From positions 186,001-250,000 of the forward strand of contig NZ_JANTYS010000005.1 in NCBI RefSeq assembly GCF_024808255.1: a stretch of 64,000 nt of DNA, read 5' to 3'. Position 1 is the stretch's first letter; each line of letters starts with the position of its first letter. The notes beneath the pieces were generated by a model. It had not been told where the DNA came from. It saw only the letters and a list, made by a program, of their open reading frames with translations, and searched no databases. The translations under genes were made by a program, and so were the position numbers. This document shows, in pieces, positions 13,200 to 64,000 of this stretch. The stretch comes from Mucilaginibacter dorajii (GTDB lineage: Bacteria; Bacteroidota; Bacteroidia; Sphingobacteriales; Sphingobacteriaceae).

Positions 13200-14087
13200 A
13201 TGATTACTATTAAGGATGTTTTTGAAGATTACAAACAGCTGAACAAGATCTATAGCGCCAATGAAACAGAAGCCATTAGCTTATTGACCATCAGCGAAAT
13301 AACAACCCTATCAAAAGCATCCATCAAGGCGTTTCCTGAACGTGAATTGACTGCCCAACAGGCCGAAAGCTTTAAAAATATCCTTGCGGAACTACTAACA
13401 GGCAAACCCATACAATACATTTTAGGTGTTACCGAATTTTACGGCCTGCCATTTAAAGTGAACGCCAACGTACTTATACCGCGCCCGGAAACCGAGGAAT
13501 TGGTGGAATGGATTCTTTTGGAAGGTGAAAGATTAAAGGTGAAAGGCAAAAGGTTTTCGGGGAGGATATTGGATATCGGAACCGGTAGTGGCTGCATTGC
13601 CATTAGTTTAAAAAAGAATTTACCGAATGCACAGGTTTCGGCAATTGATATATCGGAGGGGGCTTTGCAAACGGCGAGTGAAAATGCCAACTTGAATAAC
13701 GTCGATGTCGACTTTATTCATCGCGACATACTGAACTCAGAACTCAGAACCCAGAACTCAGAACTCAGAACTCACCATATCATAGTAAGTAACCCCCCCT
13801 ATGTTACCCTGGAGGATAAAAAGCAGATGCATACCAATGTTACCGATTTTGAGCCCCATACCGCTTTGTTTGTACCGGAGGATGACCCGCTTTTATTTTA
13901 TCGTGCTATCGCCGATTTTGCATTGGTAAATTTAGCTGCAGGCGGGCTGCTTTTTTTCGAGATTAATGAAAGCCTGGGTAAGGAAACAGTTCAGCTATTA
14001 CAAGATAAAGAATTCATAAACATTGAGTTAAGGCAGGACATGAGTGGTAGGGATAGGATGGTTAAAGCCAGTCTGAACCGGGATTAA
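13200..14087 (+). CDS. prmC: release factor glutamine methyltransferase PrmC
   Basis: PrmC methylates the Gln of the GGQ motif in peptide release factors. ATG at 13200 (295 residues) is chosen because the frame upstream overlaps divergent ribD. The helical N-domain is followed by GKPIQYILGVTEFYGLPF, NVLIPRPETEELVEW, the SAM loop LDIGTGSGCIAI and catalytic NPPY (residues 198-201). Residues about 178-192 (NSELRTQNSELRTHH) are encoded by six 7-bp repeats immediately before NPPY. The last few codons (SLNRD) lie in an intergenic inverted repeat. The NPPY codons also carry a run of seven C. Confidence 0.94.
   Translation: MITIKDVFEDYKQLNKIYSANETEAISLLTISEITTLSKASIKAFPERELTAQQAESFKNILAELLTGKPIQYILGVTEFYGLPFKVNANVLIPRPETEELVEWILLEGERLKVKGKRFSGRILDIGTGSGCIAISLKKNLPNAQVSAIDISEGALQTASENANLNNVDVDFIHRDILNSELRTQNSELRTHHIIVSNPPYVTLEDKKQMHTNVTDFEPHTALFVPEDDPLLFYRAIADFALVNLAAGGLLFFEINESLGKETVQLLQDKEFINIELRQDMSGRDRMVKASLNRD
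13733..13774 (+). repeat. 6 x 7-bp tandem repeat inside prmC
   Basis: Six consecutive GAACTCA units, one of them GAACCCA, occupy 42 bp within prmC. The total length is a multiple of three, so the frame is kept, and the array is read as NSELRTQ-type peptide. Gain or loss of one unit would shift the frame just before the catalytic NPPY. Confidence 0.9.
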
Positions 14088-14164
14088 GCAGATTGATTAG
14101 ATTTTTAGGATTTTGACGGAAAAAATCCTGCAAATCCTTTAATCCCATAAATCCCGGTTCAGAC
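14071..14164. repeat. intergenic inverted repeat GTCTGAACCGGGATT
   Basis: Perfect 15-bp arms (14071-14085 and 14150-14164) enclose AT-rich sequence. The left arm overlaps the end of prmC. A related pair occurs at 55334-55460, so this is a dispersed family. Lying between convergent prmC and xer genes, it may also work as a terminator. Confidence 0.75.
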
Positions 14165-14197
14165 AAAACAGCAAACTGCCCACCGTAAACTGCAAAC

Positions 14198-15097
14198 TCA
14201 GGAACGTGGATGAAACTGGCTTATCGTGCTCTTCAAATACTCCCTATCCAAATGGGTATAAATTTCGGTAGTGGTAATGCTTTCATGGCCTAACATTTCC
14301 TGTACTGCACGTAAATCGGCGCCGCCTTCCACAAGGTGCGTGGCAAAAGAATGGCGAAATGTGTGCGGACTGATGGCTTTGTTAAGGCCGATTGTTTGTG
14401 CCAGGCCCTGGATCATCAGGAAGATCATTTGCCGGCTCAACCGTCCTCCCCGGCGATTTAAGAAGACGATATCTTCCTCGCCCTTTTTTACAGCGATATG
14501 CACCCGCAGATTTTCTATATAGATCTTAATGGCTTTTATCGCTTCGCCGCCAATGGGCACCAAACGTTCCTTATTGCCTTTGCCGGCTACCTTTATAAAT
14601 TCAATTTCGAGGTATAAGTTTGATAATTTAAGCTCGGTAAGCTCAGACACACGCAGACCACTGCCATACAGCGTTTCCAGGATGGCTTTATTACGCGGGC
14701 CCTCGGGCTTGGATAGATCGATAGCCGCGATGAGTTTATTGATATCCTGGTAACTTAAGGTATCCGGCAACTTGCGCGTAATCCTGGGCGATTCCAGTAA
14801 TTCTGACGGATCTGTTTTTACCAGGTCTTCCATCAGCATATATTTATAAAAAGCTTTAACGCCTGATAAAATGCGGGCTTGCGACGTTGCTATCATGCCC
14901 AACTCGTTTATCCAGGTAATAAAATTGCGCAGATCGGTTAAAGTAACGGTTTCTGGTTTTAACTTAACTATTTGTATATCAGAAAATTGACACAATCGTT
15001 CTATATCCCTGCTGTAAGCTTCTACAGAGTTATCGGCCAGCGATTTCTCTAATCTTAAATAAGCCTGGAAACCTTTTATTGCCGAACGCCAATCCAA
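14198..15097 (-). CDS. tyrosine recombinase XerC/XerD
   Basis: A 299-residue tyrosine recombinase that fits the chromosome-dimer resolution type. The SAM-like N-domain (FQAYLRLEKSLADNSVEAYSRDI) is followed by the catalytic domain. Catalytic residues are Arg149 (GSGLRVSEL), His245 and Arg248 (SPHTFRHSFATHLVEGGADL), His271 (MLGHESITTTEIY) and the nucleophile Tyr280. The start is TTG at 15097, since no in-frame ATG precedes the conserved N-terminus. It sits next to aroQ rather than a mobile element, which suggests a housekeeping role. XerC and XerD cannot be separated with confidence. Confidence 0.9.
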   Translation of the reverse strand: MDWRSAIKGFQAYLRLEKSLADNSVEAYSRDIERLCQFSDIQIVKLKPETVTLTDLRNFITWINELGMIATSQARILSGVKAFYKYMLMEDLVKTDPSELLESPRITRKLPDTLSYQDINKLIAAIDLSKPEGPRNKAILETLYGSGLRVSELTELKLSNLYLEIEFIKVAGKGNKERLVPIGGEAIKAIKIYIENLRVHIAVKKGEEDIVFLNRRGGRLSRQMIFLMIQGLAQTIGLNKAISPHTFRHSFATHLVEGGADLRAVQEMLGHESITTTEIYTHLDREYLKSTISQFHPRS

Positions 15098-58482: not shown

Positions 58483-58863
58483 TTATACCAGCATACCGGT
58501 AATCACGGCATCCTGCAGGTTGCGCACCCTAAATTTTGGCTTATAGCAATAGTGCGCCAATTGTTTTACCCAGATGCTATTGTAACCAAACATCATTTTT
58601 ATAACCCTTACCCGGGTTGAGCCTTTGGGATAGCCATATTTATACCAGGTAAATTTAGATTGATCGACGTTAAACTGGTCGGCAAAATCGGCAAGAAAAA
58701 GATCAATTTCAATATCAAAAATATCCAGATCAAGATCGATACTGGTATCCAAACATAAACTGCGTGGATCAACACTACGGATCTTATAACGATTGCAATA
58801 ATCAACAATAAATTCTTTTAAAGGAGGCAATATATCTTCCATCATTTGAATAGGTTTGATCAT
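58483..58863 (-). CDS. DUF1493 family protein (acyl-carrier-like)
   Basis: A 126-residue acidic protein. FIVDYCNRYKIRSVDPRSLCLDTSIDLDLDIFDIEIDLFLADFADQFNVDQSKF follows the DUF1493 pattern (D..sle.DL.i.gdd...ll..F...F.Vd). It resembles an acyl carrier protein in outline but lacks the DSL phosphopantetheine Ser. It lies 240 bp downstream of the radical SAM/methyltransferase operon on the same strand, and any link to it is speculative. Confidence 0.6.
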   Translation of the reverse strand: MIKPIQMMEDILPPLKEFIVDYCNRYKIRSVDPRSLCLDTSIDLDLDIFDIEIDLFLADFADQFNVDQSKFTWYKYGYPKGSTRVRVIKMMFGYNSIWVKQLAHYCYKPKFRVRNLQDAVITGMLV

Positions 58864-59102: not shown

Positions 59103-59915
59103 TTATTTCTTCTGTAAAGAAATGATAAAGTAATCACCCATATATTTCCATGGCCAGCTGCTTTTGAACTTATCTTCCTTTGAGCGGAGATAATTATAAA
59201 ATTTGGGATGTTTTTCTGCAAAGCCTTCAATGTACGATGGCGGGACTATCGTACATAAACCCTCCACGCCTAATACATCAAATGATTTACGCAAGGTATT
59301 GATAACGAAAGATGGGGTATGATAAAAACACTTAAAATAAGTCCCCTCAATATGGGCTGTTCTGCCTTTGCGGGCGAAGAAGCGCCTTGTGGCTGTTTTG
59401 AATTTGCCTTTAAAGATCAGCAGTGTTTCCCAAAGGCAAAAAGGCGGGATAATAACCATGGTTACTTTGCCTCCAGGCTTAAGTAGTTCATCAAATGAAA
59501 GCAGCACTTTTTCCAATTCGCCGGTACAATTAAGGCCGCCGAAGTTGGAAAAAATATGATCATAGGGGCCTTGTTGTTTCAACAGATCAAGCTGGGTATA
59601 TGAACAGGTTTCCAGGCTGATCCGATCCCGATAGGACTCTGATTTCTGTTTCAAAACAGCCTGCATCCCGGTTGACACATCGGTAGCATGCACGAAATGA
59701 CCCTGTTGCGCAAAATAAATGGCATCCTCGCCGGTACCACTGTTGAGTTCCAGTATCCTGCTGCCGGGTTTCAGGTATTGCATTACATGCTCCCTAACCC
59801 GTGCACGTTTATAGTTGATGATGGTATTGGCCGAATAAATTTCATCAAACACCACTGACTGCCTGCTAAAGGCATCCGAAGCACTGATTTCGTTATCTGC
59901 AACAACCTGGCTCAT
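59103..59915 (-). CDS. SAM methyltransferase in radical SAM operon
   Basis: A 270-residue class I methyltransferase. ILELNSGTGEDAIYFAQQGHFVHATDVSTGMQAVLKQK is motif I with the ribose-binding Asp. YDHIFSNFGGLNCTGELEKVLLSFDELLKPGGKVTMVIIPPFCLWE gives motifs II-III. The following WETLLIFKGKFKTATRRFFARKGR is basic and may contact a lipid or membrane-bound acceptor. It overlaps the B12-type radical SAM gene upstream by 4 bp and is the last gene of the operon. Confidence 0.85.
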   Translation of the reverse strand: MSQVVADNEISASDAFSRQSVVFDEIYSANTIINYKRARVREHVMQYLKPGSRILELNSGTGEDAIYFAQQGHFVHATDVSTGMQAVLKQKSESYRDRISLETCSYTQLDLLKQQGPYDHIFSNFGGLNCTGELEKVLLSFDELLKPGGKVTMVIIPPFCLWETLLIFKGKFKTATRRFFARKGRTAHIEGTYFKCFYHTPSFVINTLRKSFDVLGVEGLCTIVPPSYIEGFAEKHPKFYNYLRSKEDKFKSSWPWKYMGDYFIISLQKK

Positions 59916-61384
59916 ATTACCTTTTCCAATTTATTTAATTTAAATCCCTCTATTAAGGTTGCCGGCGCATGGTATAAAAAGGATGCCGCTTTGCGGATGC
60001 GTTTTATGTTTGGTTTAAACGGATCTTTGAGCAATTTAAGCAGGTTGTATTTGGCAAGGTGGGCGTGGTAATTCTGGTGCACATAGCGGTGCAATTGCTT
60101 ATAGTATGCCGGGGTAAAGGTGTTGCTGAACATCAAAGCCATCTCATCGCTATCCGTCCAGTTGGTTTTTTGTAGTAGCTCGGCCTTTACTTTCTCGAAG
60201 AATAAGGTGCCTGGTAAAGGGTACGATACCGAGATACCTATTTCATGCGGCAGCAATTCATTGATCATGCTGATGGTTAAGCCGATGTCCTCTTTGGTTT
60301 CGCCGGGATAGCCAAATTGAATGAAAAACGACGGTTTGATGCCATGCTTTTTCATCAGTTTAGTAGCGGTACCAATCTGACCAATGGTAGTCCCTTTATC
60401 CATCGCGTCCAGTATCCGTTGAGAACCACTTTCGGCACCTATCCATACGTTTTCACAACCCGATGAGGCCATTGCCGCCACCTCAACGTTATCCAATAGC
60501 AAATCGGCGCGGGATTGGATCTTGTACCGTAGCGTCAGCCCCTCCTGGTTAACCAATCTGGCAAACTCTTTTACCCATCCTGGCTTCAATCCAAAAATGT
60601 CATCACAAAACCAGATGTGATCCATGTTGAACATTTGCTTCATCAGCTTTAGCTCGGTGATCACATTTTGCGGACTGCGTGAATTATACCTGTTGCCATA
60701 AATGGGCTTTGCGCACCAGTTGCATTTAAAGGGGCAGCCACGGGTAGTACCCACATTCATTGAAAAATAGCCGGCGTGGCTAAGCCAGCTTTCGCGGTAC
60801 GGCGCAATATCAATCAGATCCCAGGCTGGCAGTGGCAAGCTATCCAGATCTTTTAAAACAGGGCGGGCCGGGGTTCTAAAAGGAAAGTTATCTTTCAGGT
60901 ATGCAAGTCCTTGTATGTTGGATACATCGATGGCGCCATCTTTTATGGCATTGGTTAGTTCCAGTAGTGTTTGCTCGGCCTCGCCAATGATCACATAGTC
61001 GGCACCCTCCTGCAGGTATTCTTTGTAGCGATCTGTTGAATCGGAACTGGAAACAATTACGATGCAGCCACGCTGTTTGGCCAGCTTGCACATTTCAAAA
61101 GCGGCCTCGCGCATATTGGTGAGGCACATTTTGGTAAGGTAGTTAAAGCCATCGTCATAAATAACAAAAAAGCCGGGCTTTACCCTATCAATAACAGGCA
61201 CCACATCGTTGGCGCTATGGCCAAACATATTATCAAAAAACGATACCTGGTAACCATGCACCCGCATATTGGATGCCGCGTACAAGGTGCCCAACGGCGC
61301 GTATGGCTGACCAATGGCCCACTGCTTAGGGTCGAACCTTAAAAAATAAGAGTGGGTAAACAATATGTTATTCAACTGCTCCAT
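59912..61384 (-). CDS. B12-binding-type radical SAM protein
   Basis: A 490-residue protein. The N-terminal Rossmann-like domain (about 1-150; PYAPLGTLYAASNMRVHGYQVSFFDNMFG, GADYVIIGEAEQTLLEL) is of the B12-binding class, but the cobalamin His motif DxHxxG is not evident. The radical SAM core has Cys217, Cys221 and Cys224 in RGCPFKCNWC, then IWFCDDIFGLKP and WIGAESGSQRILDAMDKGTT. The C-terminal about 90 residues are basic and unassigned. Relatives include BchE/HpnJ-like enzymes that act on cyclic or lipid substrates. Confidence 0.85.
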   Translation of the reverse strand: MEQLNNILFTHSYFLRFDPKQWAIGQPYAPLGTLYAASNMRVHGYQVSFFDNMFGHSANDVVPVIDRVKPGFFVIYDDGFNYLTKMCLTNMREAAFEMCKLAKQRGCIVIVSSSDSTDRYKEYLQEGADYVIIGEAEQTLLELTNAIKDGAIDVSNIQGLAYLKDNFPFRTPARPVLKDLDSLPLPAWDLIDIAPYRESWLSHAGYFSMNVGTTRGCPFKCNWCAKPIYGNRYNSRSPQNVITELKLMKQMFNMDHIWFCDDIFGLKPGWVKEFARLVNQEGLTLRYKIQSRADLLLDNVEVAAMASSGCENVWIGAESGSQRILDAMDKGTTIGQIGTATKLMKKHGIKPSFFIQFGYPGETKEDIGLTISMINELLPHEIGISVSYPLPGTLFFEKVKAELLQKTNWTDSDEMALMFSNTFTPAYYKQLHRYVHQNYHAHLAKYNLLKLLKDPFKPNIKRIRKAASFLYHAPATLIEGFKLNKLEKVI

Positions 61385-61388
61385 ATAG

Positions 61389-62438
61389 CTAAGACAGGTG
61401 AGTTAAAGGTGATAAATTGAGCGAACAAACGCATTTTACACAGGTTGGGTGTGCAGAGGTATTCAGCGTGCGCCTAAATTCAATAGCCGCAGTGCTATTC
61501 AAAATATTATTCAATGACGTATCGCGGATATTCCCCATTGATTCCAGGAAAAAGCATGGCCGCACGGTGCCATCAGCCTCCACAACGGTAGATACCCAGG
61601 GCGCGTTGCATTTTTTAAAGGGGAAAGGGTTTAGCTGGTAAAACGCGGCGTAATAGTGATACACGTCCTGGATTTTCTCCTTGCTTTCGGCAATAAAGCC
61701 ATTATGAAATTCCTGGTTAAACTCCTTAAACAGGTAGCTGATCACTTCGCAAAGCTCAGGTAGTTCTTTTTCCGATATCAGGATCTCGTGCTGCTTGGGT
61801 TCTTCCCAGGCTTGCTGGCGGTTAAAGGCGTGGCTGCTAACATCGGCTGGTAAAAAACTTACCTGGTTAAGGCCCATCTTTTTAGCCTCGGTAATGATAG
61901 CCGGCCAGTTGCGGTAGTTAAGCCGGTGAATTACCGTGCGCCCGGTAATGTGATAAGCCGGGTTCAGTTTTTTGATGTGCTCCACTCCTTCCTTTAGCTT
62001 TTTAAAGGCATTGGGAATGTTCCTGATAGCGTCATGCAGCATTTCATCGCCATCGATAGATACAATTACTTCGCTTACGTATTTTAAAATATCATCGGCA
62101 TTGGCTTTAATAGATAGCCCGGTGGTAAGTAACACCACGCTAATGCCGGCAGATTTGAGGATACGGCACAAAGCGAAAAAGTTAGTGTTCAGCAAAGCTT
62201 CCCCGCCAGACATGAGCACCTGGCTTGTACCCAGTTCCTTCAATGAAGCCAGTAAATCGGTAATATCCGCCTCGGTCAGTTGTTTCAGGTTTTTGTTATC
62301 CTTCCAGATATCACACATCACACAACGGCAGTTACAGGCGCTGTGCGGCATTAAAATCACGATAGGCAATGCCGATATCCTGTGTGTTTGCAGGGTACGG
62401 TAGCGCTTGTAAGTATGCAATACGGTTTGCGCGTTCAT
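61389..62438 (-). CDS. radical SAM protein with SPASM-like C-terminus
   Basis: A 349-residue protein. Cluster Cys35, Cys39 and Cys42 are in CNCRCVMC, with an extra Cys37. LMSGGEALLNTNFFALCRIL and VSIDGDEMLHDAIRN are radical SAM core motifs. The C-terminal cysteines (FKKCNAPW, VRPCFF, CVKCVCS) fit a SPASM/twitch auxiliary cluster like those of MoaA- and peptide-modifying enzymes. It lies 4 bp from the B12-type gene and 3 bp from a methyltransferase gene. Its substrate is unknown. Confidence 0.85.
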   Translation of the reverse strand: MNAQTVLHTYKRYRTLQTHRISALPIVILMPHSACNCRCVMCDIWKDNKNLKQLTEADITDLLASLKELGTSQVLMSGGEALLNTNFFALCRILKSAGISVVLLTTGLSIKANADDILKYVSEVIVSIDGDEMLHDAIRNIPNAFKKLKEGVEHIKKLNPAYHITGRTVIHRLNYRNWPAIITEAKKMGLNQVSFLPADVSSHAFNRQQAWEEPKQHEILISEKELPELCEVISYLFKEFNQEFHNGFIAESKEKIQDVYHYYAAFYQLNPFPFKKCNAPWVSTVVEADGTVRPCFFLESMGNIRDTSLNNILNSTAAIEFRRTLNTSAHPTCVKCVCSLNLSPLTHLS

Positions 62439-62441
62439 TGC

Positions 62442-63200
62442 TCAGGGTTTTAATTTTATCCAGTAAAAAATTCCCTGCCTTTTAAGCCTGTTCAAAAGGG
62501 TTGTGGGGTCAAACATAATTTTATGCTTAAAATGCATTACATCCTTCAGCAAATGATGAAAATAGTATGGCGCCATTTGTGGATAACCCAATGATGTAAA
62601 ATATTCCAGGCTCCGCTCCGTAGCAATTTTCAGTTCACCGGCATGATAAAAATGCGTATCCAGTACATGCATCCGCCCATTTGCACTAAGCAGATCGAAG
62701 GCATTTTTAACAACATCTTTCAGCACCGGGAAATATTGGATAGAGGCAGCAAAAACGATCACGTCAAACTTTCCCCCGTCATTAAAACTATTGGCGCTAA
62801 ATGAACCGTGAATAAATTTCAAATTGGGCTTTTTAAAAACACGGATCGCCTGGTCAATTTCTATCCGGTTAGGGTCAATTCCTGTTACTTTGGCGTTTGG
62901 AATCCTCGCAAGCTTTGCAGAGAACCAGCCATTACCACATCCAACCTCCAGGATATTTAACGACTTGCGTTCTTTTTTAAGAGAATCGATCAATTGCTCT
63001 GCCGAATGTTTCCTCAGCTTCCACTCTTTATAATACCGATGCCCGGCGTCAATATGGGGCAAGGCAGCCACTTGCTTGTCGCTATATAACCTGCCTTCTT
63101 TATCGCGCACAGCAACATACATTTCCTCAAACGCTTCATCGGCAGTTGGGTTGTACTTAGGGGTAATATCAGTTACAGCGCTTTTCAAATGTTCAATCAA
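62442..63200 (-). CDS. SAM methyltransferase, operon member
   Basis: A 252-residue methyltransferase. The start is TTG 63200, directly after the TAA of the upstream radical SAM gene. ILEVGCGNGWFSAKLARIPNAKVTGIDPNRIEIDQAIRVF is motif I, and FDVIVFAASIQYFPVLKDVVKNAFDLLSANGRMHVLDTHFY gives motifs II-III. The N-terminal part (GRLYSDKQVAALPHIDAGHRYYKEWKLRKHSAEQL) resembles that of other operon-linked methyltransferases. The product is unknown. Confidence 0.85.
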   Translation of the reverse strand: MIEHLKSAVTDITPKYNPTADEAFEEMYVAVRDKEGRLYSDKQVAALPHIDAGHRYYKEWKLRKHSAEQLIDSLKKERKSLNILEVGCGNGWFSAKLARIPNAKVTGIDPNRIEIDQAIRVFKKPNLKFIHGSFSANSFNDGGKFDVIVFAASIQYFPVLKDVVKNAFDLLSANGRMHVLDTHFYHAGELKIATERSLEYFTSLGYPQMAPYYFHHLLKDVMHFKHKIMFDPTTLLNRLKRQGIFYWIKLKP

Positions 63201-64000
63201 TTAAAATCCCTGGATCTCTGGCTGGCGGTATTCCCACAACCTTTGCAACAGTTTTATCTCGTAAGGATATTTATACAGGTTTGCTTTGTAACGGATGGTT
63301 GATACCAGCTTAATGGCTTTTCTTTTCAGCTCATTTAGCTTAATATCGGTAACTGTTGGATATACGCCGTTAAGCACCGTTTCAAAATTTCTGATCTTAT
63401 CAATCATCTCGGGCGTTAACCAGGGCGTTAAAGGATTTTTACGCAGATCAAAACTTTCCCAGGCCGGGCTTACCCAGTCTTCCAGTGTTTGTGGATATTT
63501 AAACCCTTCGGCCTGCACCTGTTTAAACAACTCCGATCCTTCGGTAGGTACCGGTGTATAGGTGTAGATCACGATCTCGGTGTCGGGGTTTACAGCCTTC
63601 ACCTTCTTTATAAAGTTGATATCAAAATCAATTTGCGCCTGTACTTTTTCCGGCGATGAAGCTGGCGTGCCTAAAACAAAGGAATATTCGGGGATGATAT
63701 CAAATTTCTTCAACCGTTCTGCAAAGCGGATAATCTGCTCGCCGGTTTGGGTACCGCCTTTGTCCATTTGTGCAAGTACCTCGTCGTTACCGCTTTCGGC
63801 ACCAAAAAAGATACATTTACAGCCCGAGCGACGGATAAGCTCCAACGAACTATCCTTAAACTTATCCATGGTATCAATACGGGCCATGCCCCACCAGGTC
63901 ATATTTTCGGGTTCAATCAGTTTGGCAAAGTCAACCGCCCGTTTTTCAGATACAAAAAAGTTATTATCATGAAACTCAATGGCATCGGCACCATATTTAT
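63201..64000 (-). CDS. radical SAM protein, 5' end beyond window
   Basis: The frame is open from 63201 to the window edge, so the start lies outside. The reading begins KYGADAIEFHDNNFFVSEKRAVDF and continues with MTWWGMARIDTMDKF and CKCIFFGAESGNDEVLAQMDKGGT, which are the later strands of a radical SAM barrel of the B12-binding class. The CxxxCxxC motif is not in view. YTYTPVPTEGSELFKQV and a helical tail follow. It is the upstream member of the operon with the 62442 and 61389 genes. Confidence 0.85.
   Translation of the reverse strand, partial: KYGADAIEFHDNNFFVSEKRAVDFAKLIEPENMTWWGMARIDTMDKFKDSSLELIRRSGCKCIFFGAESGNDEVLAQMDKGGTQTGEQIIRFAERLKKFDIIPEYSFVLGTPASSPEKVQAQIDFDINFIKKVKAVNPDTEIVIYTYTPVPTEGSELFKQVQAEGFKYPQTLEDWVSPAWESFDLRKNPLTPWLTPEMIDKIRNFETVLNGVYPTVTDIKLNELKRKAIKLVSTIRYKANLYKYPYEIKLLQRLWEYRQPEIQGF

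Follow-up and report, generated by a model that had tools for sequence, protein, structure and literature searches.

What might a bacterium make with three radical S-adenosylmethionine (SAM) enzymes and two SAM-dependent methyltransferases whose genes lie end to end at a single place in its genome? The question is raised by five genes, here called A to E, at the end of a 64,000-nucleotide stretch of Mucilaginibacter dorajii DNA (genome G000, contig C5:186001-250000; hereafter the window). The answer that we consider probable is that this block, together with a divergent operon F–G–H just beyond the window edge, forms the tailoring core of a Bacteroidota surface-glycan locus, of the exopolysaccharide or glycan-ligation kind. 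The surface-glycan context of the block is well supported, and the substrate would be a sugar of a lipid-linked surface glycan. A modified sugar is argued for because a glycan locus here contains three radical SAM enzymes whose best-studied relatives act on sugars, a nucleotidyltransferase (NTase) and three methyltransferases. The five genes are as follows.

59103-59915, minus strand: A, class I SAM methyltransferase of 270 residues, last gene of the operon (Methyltransf_25, 45.8 bits)
59912-61384, minus strand: B, cobalamin-binding-type radical SAM enzyme of 490 residues (Radical_SAM, 62.5 bits)
61389-62438, minus strand: C, radical SAM/SPASM protein of 349 residues (Radical_SAM, 58.5 bits; SPASM, 48.6 bits)
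62442-63200, minus strand: D, class I SAM methyltransferase of 252 residues, TTG start, optional member (Methyltransf_25, 57.9 bits)
63201-64000, minus strand, 5′ part beyond the window: E, cobalamin-binding-type radical SAM enzyme of 499 residues (Radical_SAM, 43.2 bits; B12-binding, 39.1 bits); entire gene at L002:9201-10700, L002 being a stretch that reaches past the window edge

Both the tight minus-strand packing of these genes, with gaps of −4 (A/B), +4 (B/C), +3 (C/D) and 0 bp (D/E), and their kinds agree with the preliminary description of this DNA: Pfam domains confirm two B12-class radical SAM proteins, one SPASM protein and two methyltransferases, with the B12-binding match above the cut-off of 32.1 bits in E but below it in B (23.1 bits), and the Radical_SAM match above cut-off in both. 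The same description expected the operon to continue past base 64000 and suggested reading on. E does cross the edge and is completed there, but the operon begins with it, since the next genes are divergent: on the opposite strand lie F (a methyltransferase), G (a metal-dependent amidohydrolase) and H (a GT4 glycosyltransferase), an operon that belongs with the A–E block. Although F was listed at 274 residues from a TTG codon, its homologues are shorter (median about 249 residues), so translation more probably begins at an internal ATG.

How far this arrangement is kept was judged from the relatives of E. A genome scan gave 547 matches, of which the best 80 were kept as loci (L017-L096), mostly from Mucilaginibacter but also from Chitinophagaceae, Segetibacter, Pinibacter and Dyadobacter frigoris; as they were chosen by similarity to E, the conservation counts describe close relatives. 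All eight proteins A to H served as queries, open reading frames (ORFs) were called simply as the longest ones, and a locus was deemed testable for a gene where enough sequence is available. The order is H–G–F facing E–D–C–B–A. A is present in 65/65 testable loci, B in 66/66, C in 73/73, F in 71/74 and G in 72/73, and A, B, C, E, F and G occur all together in 59 of 62. D, found in 49/74, is an optional member, so that the expected joint conservation of the five genes holds for A, B, C and E – kept across genera along with F and G – and not for D. With synteny so conserved, a chance arrangement is excluded. Median identity to the window's proteins is highest for E (80.9% over the 80 loci), followed by B (71.5%), C (70.9%), A (64.9%), F (57.5%), G (53.3%), D (47.9%) and the glycosyltransferase H (42.2%) – a gradient to be expected if a constant special residue sits in strain-specific chains. 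In one locus (L022, Mucilaginibacter pineti, around 13315-14787), B is read as two ORFs of 334 and 147 residues, through either a frameshift or a sequencing error.

The block is nonetheless patchy, E being found in only 13 of 201 genomes of the host family, 11 of them of the same genus. In a phylum sample of 395 Bacteroidota genomes (E counted at E ≤ 1e-60, NTase and G by profile), E occurs in 17, B in 27 and G in 10, with all the E and all the G genomes falling among the 27 with B. In G487, counted as having E in the survey of genes around B, this is an 85-residue remnant. In the E tree, Dyadobacter lies inside Mucilaginibacter (SH-aLRT support 91, below the starred level), a nesting that suggests transfer of the cluster.

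The surroundings of the block give its context. Genes from 81 loci (the 80 and the window's own) were clustered into neighbour families; the counts given for 80 omit the window's, and, with flanks of at most 10 kb per locus, all are lower bounds. The commonest families are a GT4 glycosyltransferase (gt4b, 62/80), the NTase (58), an ABC exporter (54) and the Wzy_C protein Wzy1 (49), followed by the glycosyltransferases gt4c (43), gt2 (40) and gt4d (37) and a second Wzy-like protein, Wzy2 (33). Rarer are GNAT (29), flavin-reductase-like (29) and polysaccharide deacetylase (25) families, as well as a family of PMT-like membrane glycosyltransferases (13), in several loci (range L033-L095) inserted between C and B. 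A Wzx flippase and one more GT4 gene appear in longer stretches taken from complete genomes, and the Pfam names borne by neighbours – Wzy_C (64.8 bits), Polysacc_synt (55.8 bits), Glycos_transf_2, Polysacc_deac_1, Bac_transf, GT87 and GT9 – are of the same kind. Flippase, polymerase or ligase and glycosyltransferases thus occur together, in relatives at the same locus and in M. dorajii on contig C28. Polysaccharide genes, which the preliminary description had named only as something to look for, form the context of the block. By contrast, the acyl-carrier-like DUF1493 gene downstream of A (58483-58863), considered there a possible member, is excluded: it is present in 2/81 loci, namely the window's and that of the near relative M. 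flavus (L017), and tblastn finds it in L017 alone of 92 loci.

In M. dorajii itself the locus is complete, in at least three pieces. Contig C28 carries, in order, the NTase, Wzy1, gt4c, gt4d, gt2, Wzy2, Wzx and a GT2 gene, while C29 carries gt4b, the ABC exporter and an OmpA-like gene; a polysaccharide export protein is encoded some 4 kb from these. The NTase (80% identical to that of L018), the ABC exporter (75%) and Wzy2 on these contigs are free of inner stops. The preliminary description met one part of a split locus, since the partner genes sit on C28 and C29. As to how the split arose, a search of eight relatives for the genes on either side of the block yielded neither a clean empty site nor a mechanism; these genes lie apart in the relatives where both were detected, except in M. 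flavus, which shares the split, and in G586 and G587 the right-hand flanking gene gave no match. Farther afield, 21 of the 27 phylum genomes with B have one or more genes labelled as glycosyltransferase, exporter or flippase in the examined stretch, and GT87, GT9 and Wzx-like genes are found at distant loci.

With known Wzx/Wzy exopolysaccharide and O-antigen loci, the locus shares Wzx (Polysacc_synt), Wzy_C and GT4/GT2 genes. An initiating sugar transferase (Bac_transf) occurs in at least 9 of the 80 loci. We know of no Wzx/Wzy locus with two B12-type radical SAM enzymes and one of the SPASM type as its most conserved part. The ABC protein resembles PglK-type flippases over the whole length of the model (residues 8-555 aligned with 5-555 of 558), yet scores 180 bits against a cut-off of 1000, and for its ATPase part the CydD and type I secretion models give slightly better scores.

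The NTase is a nucleotidyltransferase of the pol-beta fold. Its GS and DxD motifs are kept in 27/27 aligned rows, and distant NTases show a simple GS/GT...DxD pattern in 22/26; profile searches gave no solved relative (best E 0.38) and no NCBIfam match. Of the 65 loci with enough sequence, 55 have it downstream of E at a distance of at most 10 kb; L017 is among the ten that do not. In the phylum sample, its profile matches 31/395 genomes, among them all 27 with B, the other four matches all being weak. Measured between matched stretches, NTase and B lie less than 300 bases apart in 19/27 genomes, less than 700 in 21/27 and less than 5 kb in 26/27; only in M. dorajii are they on different contigs. 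NTase and B are an old pair, as every B genome has the NTase and all but one keep it within 5 kb. In G453, G298 and G434 the pair stands without A, E or a labelled glycan gene nearby, so its function may be a separate one. Seven genomes (G130, G272, G282, G449, G464, G482 and G499) encode a further B-like radical SAM protein, 32-37% identical to B, in the same locus or nearby.

B and E are predicted members of the cobalamin-binding radical SAM superfamily, judging from their CxxxCxxC motif – at 217/221/224 in B (invariant in 35 aligned sequences) and 200/204/207 in E (invariant in 36) – and from an N-terminal Rossmann-type B12 domain. Their predicted models (mean pLDDT, the predicted local distance difference test score, 77.6 for B and 76.6 for E, though below 50 in the loop with the cluster cysteines) match OxsB over the full length (Z 26.3 and 20.6, respectively), AprD4 (Z 24.2 over 402 residues and 19.1 over 379) and, also over the full length, TsrM, CysS, TokK and MgmA. 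With OxsB, AprD4, TsrM, CysS and MgmA all among the matches, neither fold nor profile searches tell which reaction B or E performs. Neither protein reaches any NCBIfam cut-off; the top match of both is HpnJ (TIGR03471; 133.6 for B and 103.7 for E against 577.6). AprD4, a radical SAM diol dehydratase of apramycin biosynthesis that is not known to need cobalamin, resembles both in fold over their full length and is the nearest or second-nearest solved sequence for each. Identity is nevertheless only 14-17%, the scores against its model NF033070 (86.9 and 35.7) miss the cut-off of 500, and B and E belong to a glycan locus rather than an aminoglycoside cluster. C has both SPASM (cut-off 21.5) and Radical_SAM domains above cut-off; its nearest solved sequence is cytosylglucuronate decarboxylase (44.5 bits), and its score against the BlsE model TIGR04466 is 51.9, below the cut-off of 400.

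G belongs to the deaminase-type amidohydrolases (Amidohydro_1), although it reaches no NCBIfam cut-off. Its metal ligands and catalytic Glu (HxH at 55 and 57, H165, E168, H195 and D241) are invariant in 21/21 rows, a trait shared with TM0936-type deaminases; TM0936, whose substrates are S-adenosylhomocysteine (SAH) and methylthioadenosine, is its best match among Protein Data Bank profiles (40.2 bits, E 2.1e-9), but over residues 157-300 only. In three genomes that lack both G and E (G216, G317 and G453; loci L162, L165 and L169), the gene after A or B encodes a CDA/TadA-like deaminase whose N-terminal part includes a hydrophobic stretch. This protein, its family named from its motif alone, is perhaps an unrelated deaminase replacing G.

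Taken together, a sugar-tailoring role is supported by the conserved clustering of the genes, by catalytic motifs that are intact in B, E, G and the NTase, and by glycan genes around the block in relatives and elsewhere in this genome. The sugar-acting relatives of B, E and C work on paromamine (AprD4), lipid-linked glucosamine (HpnJ) and cytosylglucuronate (BlsE). B and E could apply 5′-deoxyadenosyl chemistry, or perhaps that of a cobalamin methyl group, to a sugar attached to a nucleotide or polyprenyl phosphate, and this modification might precede or follow transfer of the sugar to the lipid carrier. C might bring about a further radical change, such as an oxidation, a decarboxylation or an epimerisation; the sugar would be methylated by A and F, and by D in the loci that have it; and the NTase might activate, or transfer a nucleotide to, the substrate or product of B. 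G could deaminate an intermediate, or else the 5′-deoxyadenosine or SAH left by the three radical SAM enzymes and three methyltransferases. GT4 and GT2 enzymes would then build the chain, Wzx or the PglK-like exporter would flip it, and Wzy_C-family proteins would polymerise or ligate it, placing a constant special residue in strain-specific chains.

Several observations weigh against this account. In the window's genome the block does not adjoin the glycan genes, and keeping the best 80 of 547 loci favours synteny by selection. Some glycan labels in the phylum sample are weak, as in G430, where there is only a 36% match to gt4b, and six of the 27 B genomes (G203, G272, G298, G434, G449 and G453) have no labelled glycan gene in the examined stretch, so the role of the NTase–B pair may be wider than glycan loci. 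The candidate substrate, assigned by likeness to HpnJ, AprD4 and BlsE, is tentative since that likeness is weak and unselective: the scores of BchE and PhpK come close to that of HpnJ, and the fold rank of AprD4 is tied by OxsB, TsrM, CysS and MgmA. Finally, no Rfam family, the cobalamin riboswitch included, was found in 103 kb covering the window, L002 and L159. Promoters and terminators were searched for as well. The motif TAnnTTTG, which we take to be a Bacteroidota-type promoter element, is absent from the E/F gap in M. dorajii and occurs there on one strand in 3/68 loci and on the other in 7/68. Sigma-70 matches (18) are below the shuffled mean of 22.1 and terminator-like ones (19) above that of 11.9, and neither count was used.

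Among the alternatives, the one that survives best, though we regard it as unlikely, is lipid tailoring, in which B and E would act on a membrane lipid or on the polyprenyl carrier itself and glycosyltransferases would attach a head group, much as hopanoids or glycolipids are made. HpnJ, BchE, HpnR and the ladderane-lipid model TIGR04072 are indeed among the matches of B and E, and a PglK/MsbA-type exporter lies nearby. A membrane-associated substrate had also been hinted at by basic C-terminal tails, which are present in A, B and D (Lys + Arg versus Asp + Glu in the last 40 residues: 9 vs 4, 9 vs 3 and 8 vs 2) but not upheld for C (3 vs 1); B, moreover, is predicted to end in helices at 460-467 and 469-488. 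Yet all lipid models score far below cut-off, and no recurring fatty-acid or isoprenoid genes appear among the annotated neighbour families. In the hopanoid system HpnI–HpnK–HpnJ, as described in PMC12583986, a glycosyltransferase and a B12-type radical SAM enzyme act on a lipid-bound sugar. The likeness to our locus lies in this theme; that system has no counterpart to the two B12-type radical SAM enzymes, three methyltransferases, NTase and glycan polymerisation genes found here. A hopanoid pathway proper was rejected, given the missed HpnJ cut-off and the absence of any match to squalene-hopene cyclase (TIGR01507) in the window's genome.

Doubtful to a slightly greater degree is a small exported glycoside or nucleoside, aminoglycoside-like, made by the NTase, B, E, C, G and the methyltransferases and exported by the ABC protein. 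The solved sequences closest to B, E and C, the grouping of G with deaminases, the patchy spread of E and the transfer suggested by the place of Dyadobacter in its tree would all suit such a product. A Wzx flippase and two Wzy_C-type membrane proteins are, however, polysaccharide or glycan-ligation genes, and no resistance or regulatory gene recurs among the annotated neighbour families.

A ribosomally synthesised and post-translationally modified peptide is very improbable. C does match many SPASM peptide maturases, if weakly, and the preliminary description had kept a peptide-modifying option open while recognising no precursor gene. That absence extends to the gaps of the cluster – none above 4 bp among the five genes, and no small ORF from 146 inter-gene gaps conserved in more than 6/81 loci, precursors elsewhere in the genome not having been sought – and speaks against the option itself. 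An anti-phage role for C as a viperin-like enzyme (PADLOC pVip models, 53 bits) is the least credible of all, and the defence reading was rejected: C has a SPASM domain, the match spans no more than the common radical core (33-199), the NCBIfam viperin model gives C 43.4 where its cut-off is 180, and matches of the methyltransferases to mad2 reflect a common domain only.

Returning to the surface-glycan tailoring core, literature searches met no description of the locus or its chemistry in the openly licensed PubMed Central literature, and the operon has no match to a known cluster, in keeping with the earlier view of it as a candidate for an undescribed pathway. To our knowledge, radical SAM sugar chemistry comes mainly from antibiotics and hopanoids. 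Where the genome paper on M. pedocola (PMC6260751) treats exopolysaccharide genes assigned by KEGG, radical SAM genes go unmentioned. A surface-glycan locus is of a known kind; the unnamed radical SAM families at its core are the new part.

A bolder version, which we offer as no more than tentative, is a phylum-wide, undescribed radical pathway in which an obligatory NTase–B start and a finish by E, C, G and three methyltransferases would yield a monosaccharide whose carbon skeleton is rebuilt (by C-methylation, deoxygenation or a change of ring) for Bacteroidota surface glycans, perhaps including the mucilage after which Mucilaginibacter is named. In the window's genome, where the locus is spread over three contigs, the block read by itself does not reveal its role. 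Seen across relatives, a widespread glycan locus in which two B12-type radical SAM enzymes are the best-conserved members points to an undescribed sugar or lipid-linked saccharide, and, as the NTase goes with B in every genome checked, the NTase and A to G provide a defined gene set for finding that product.

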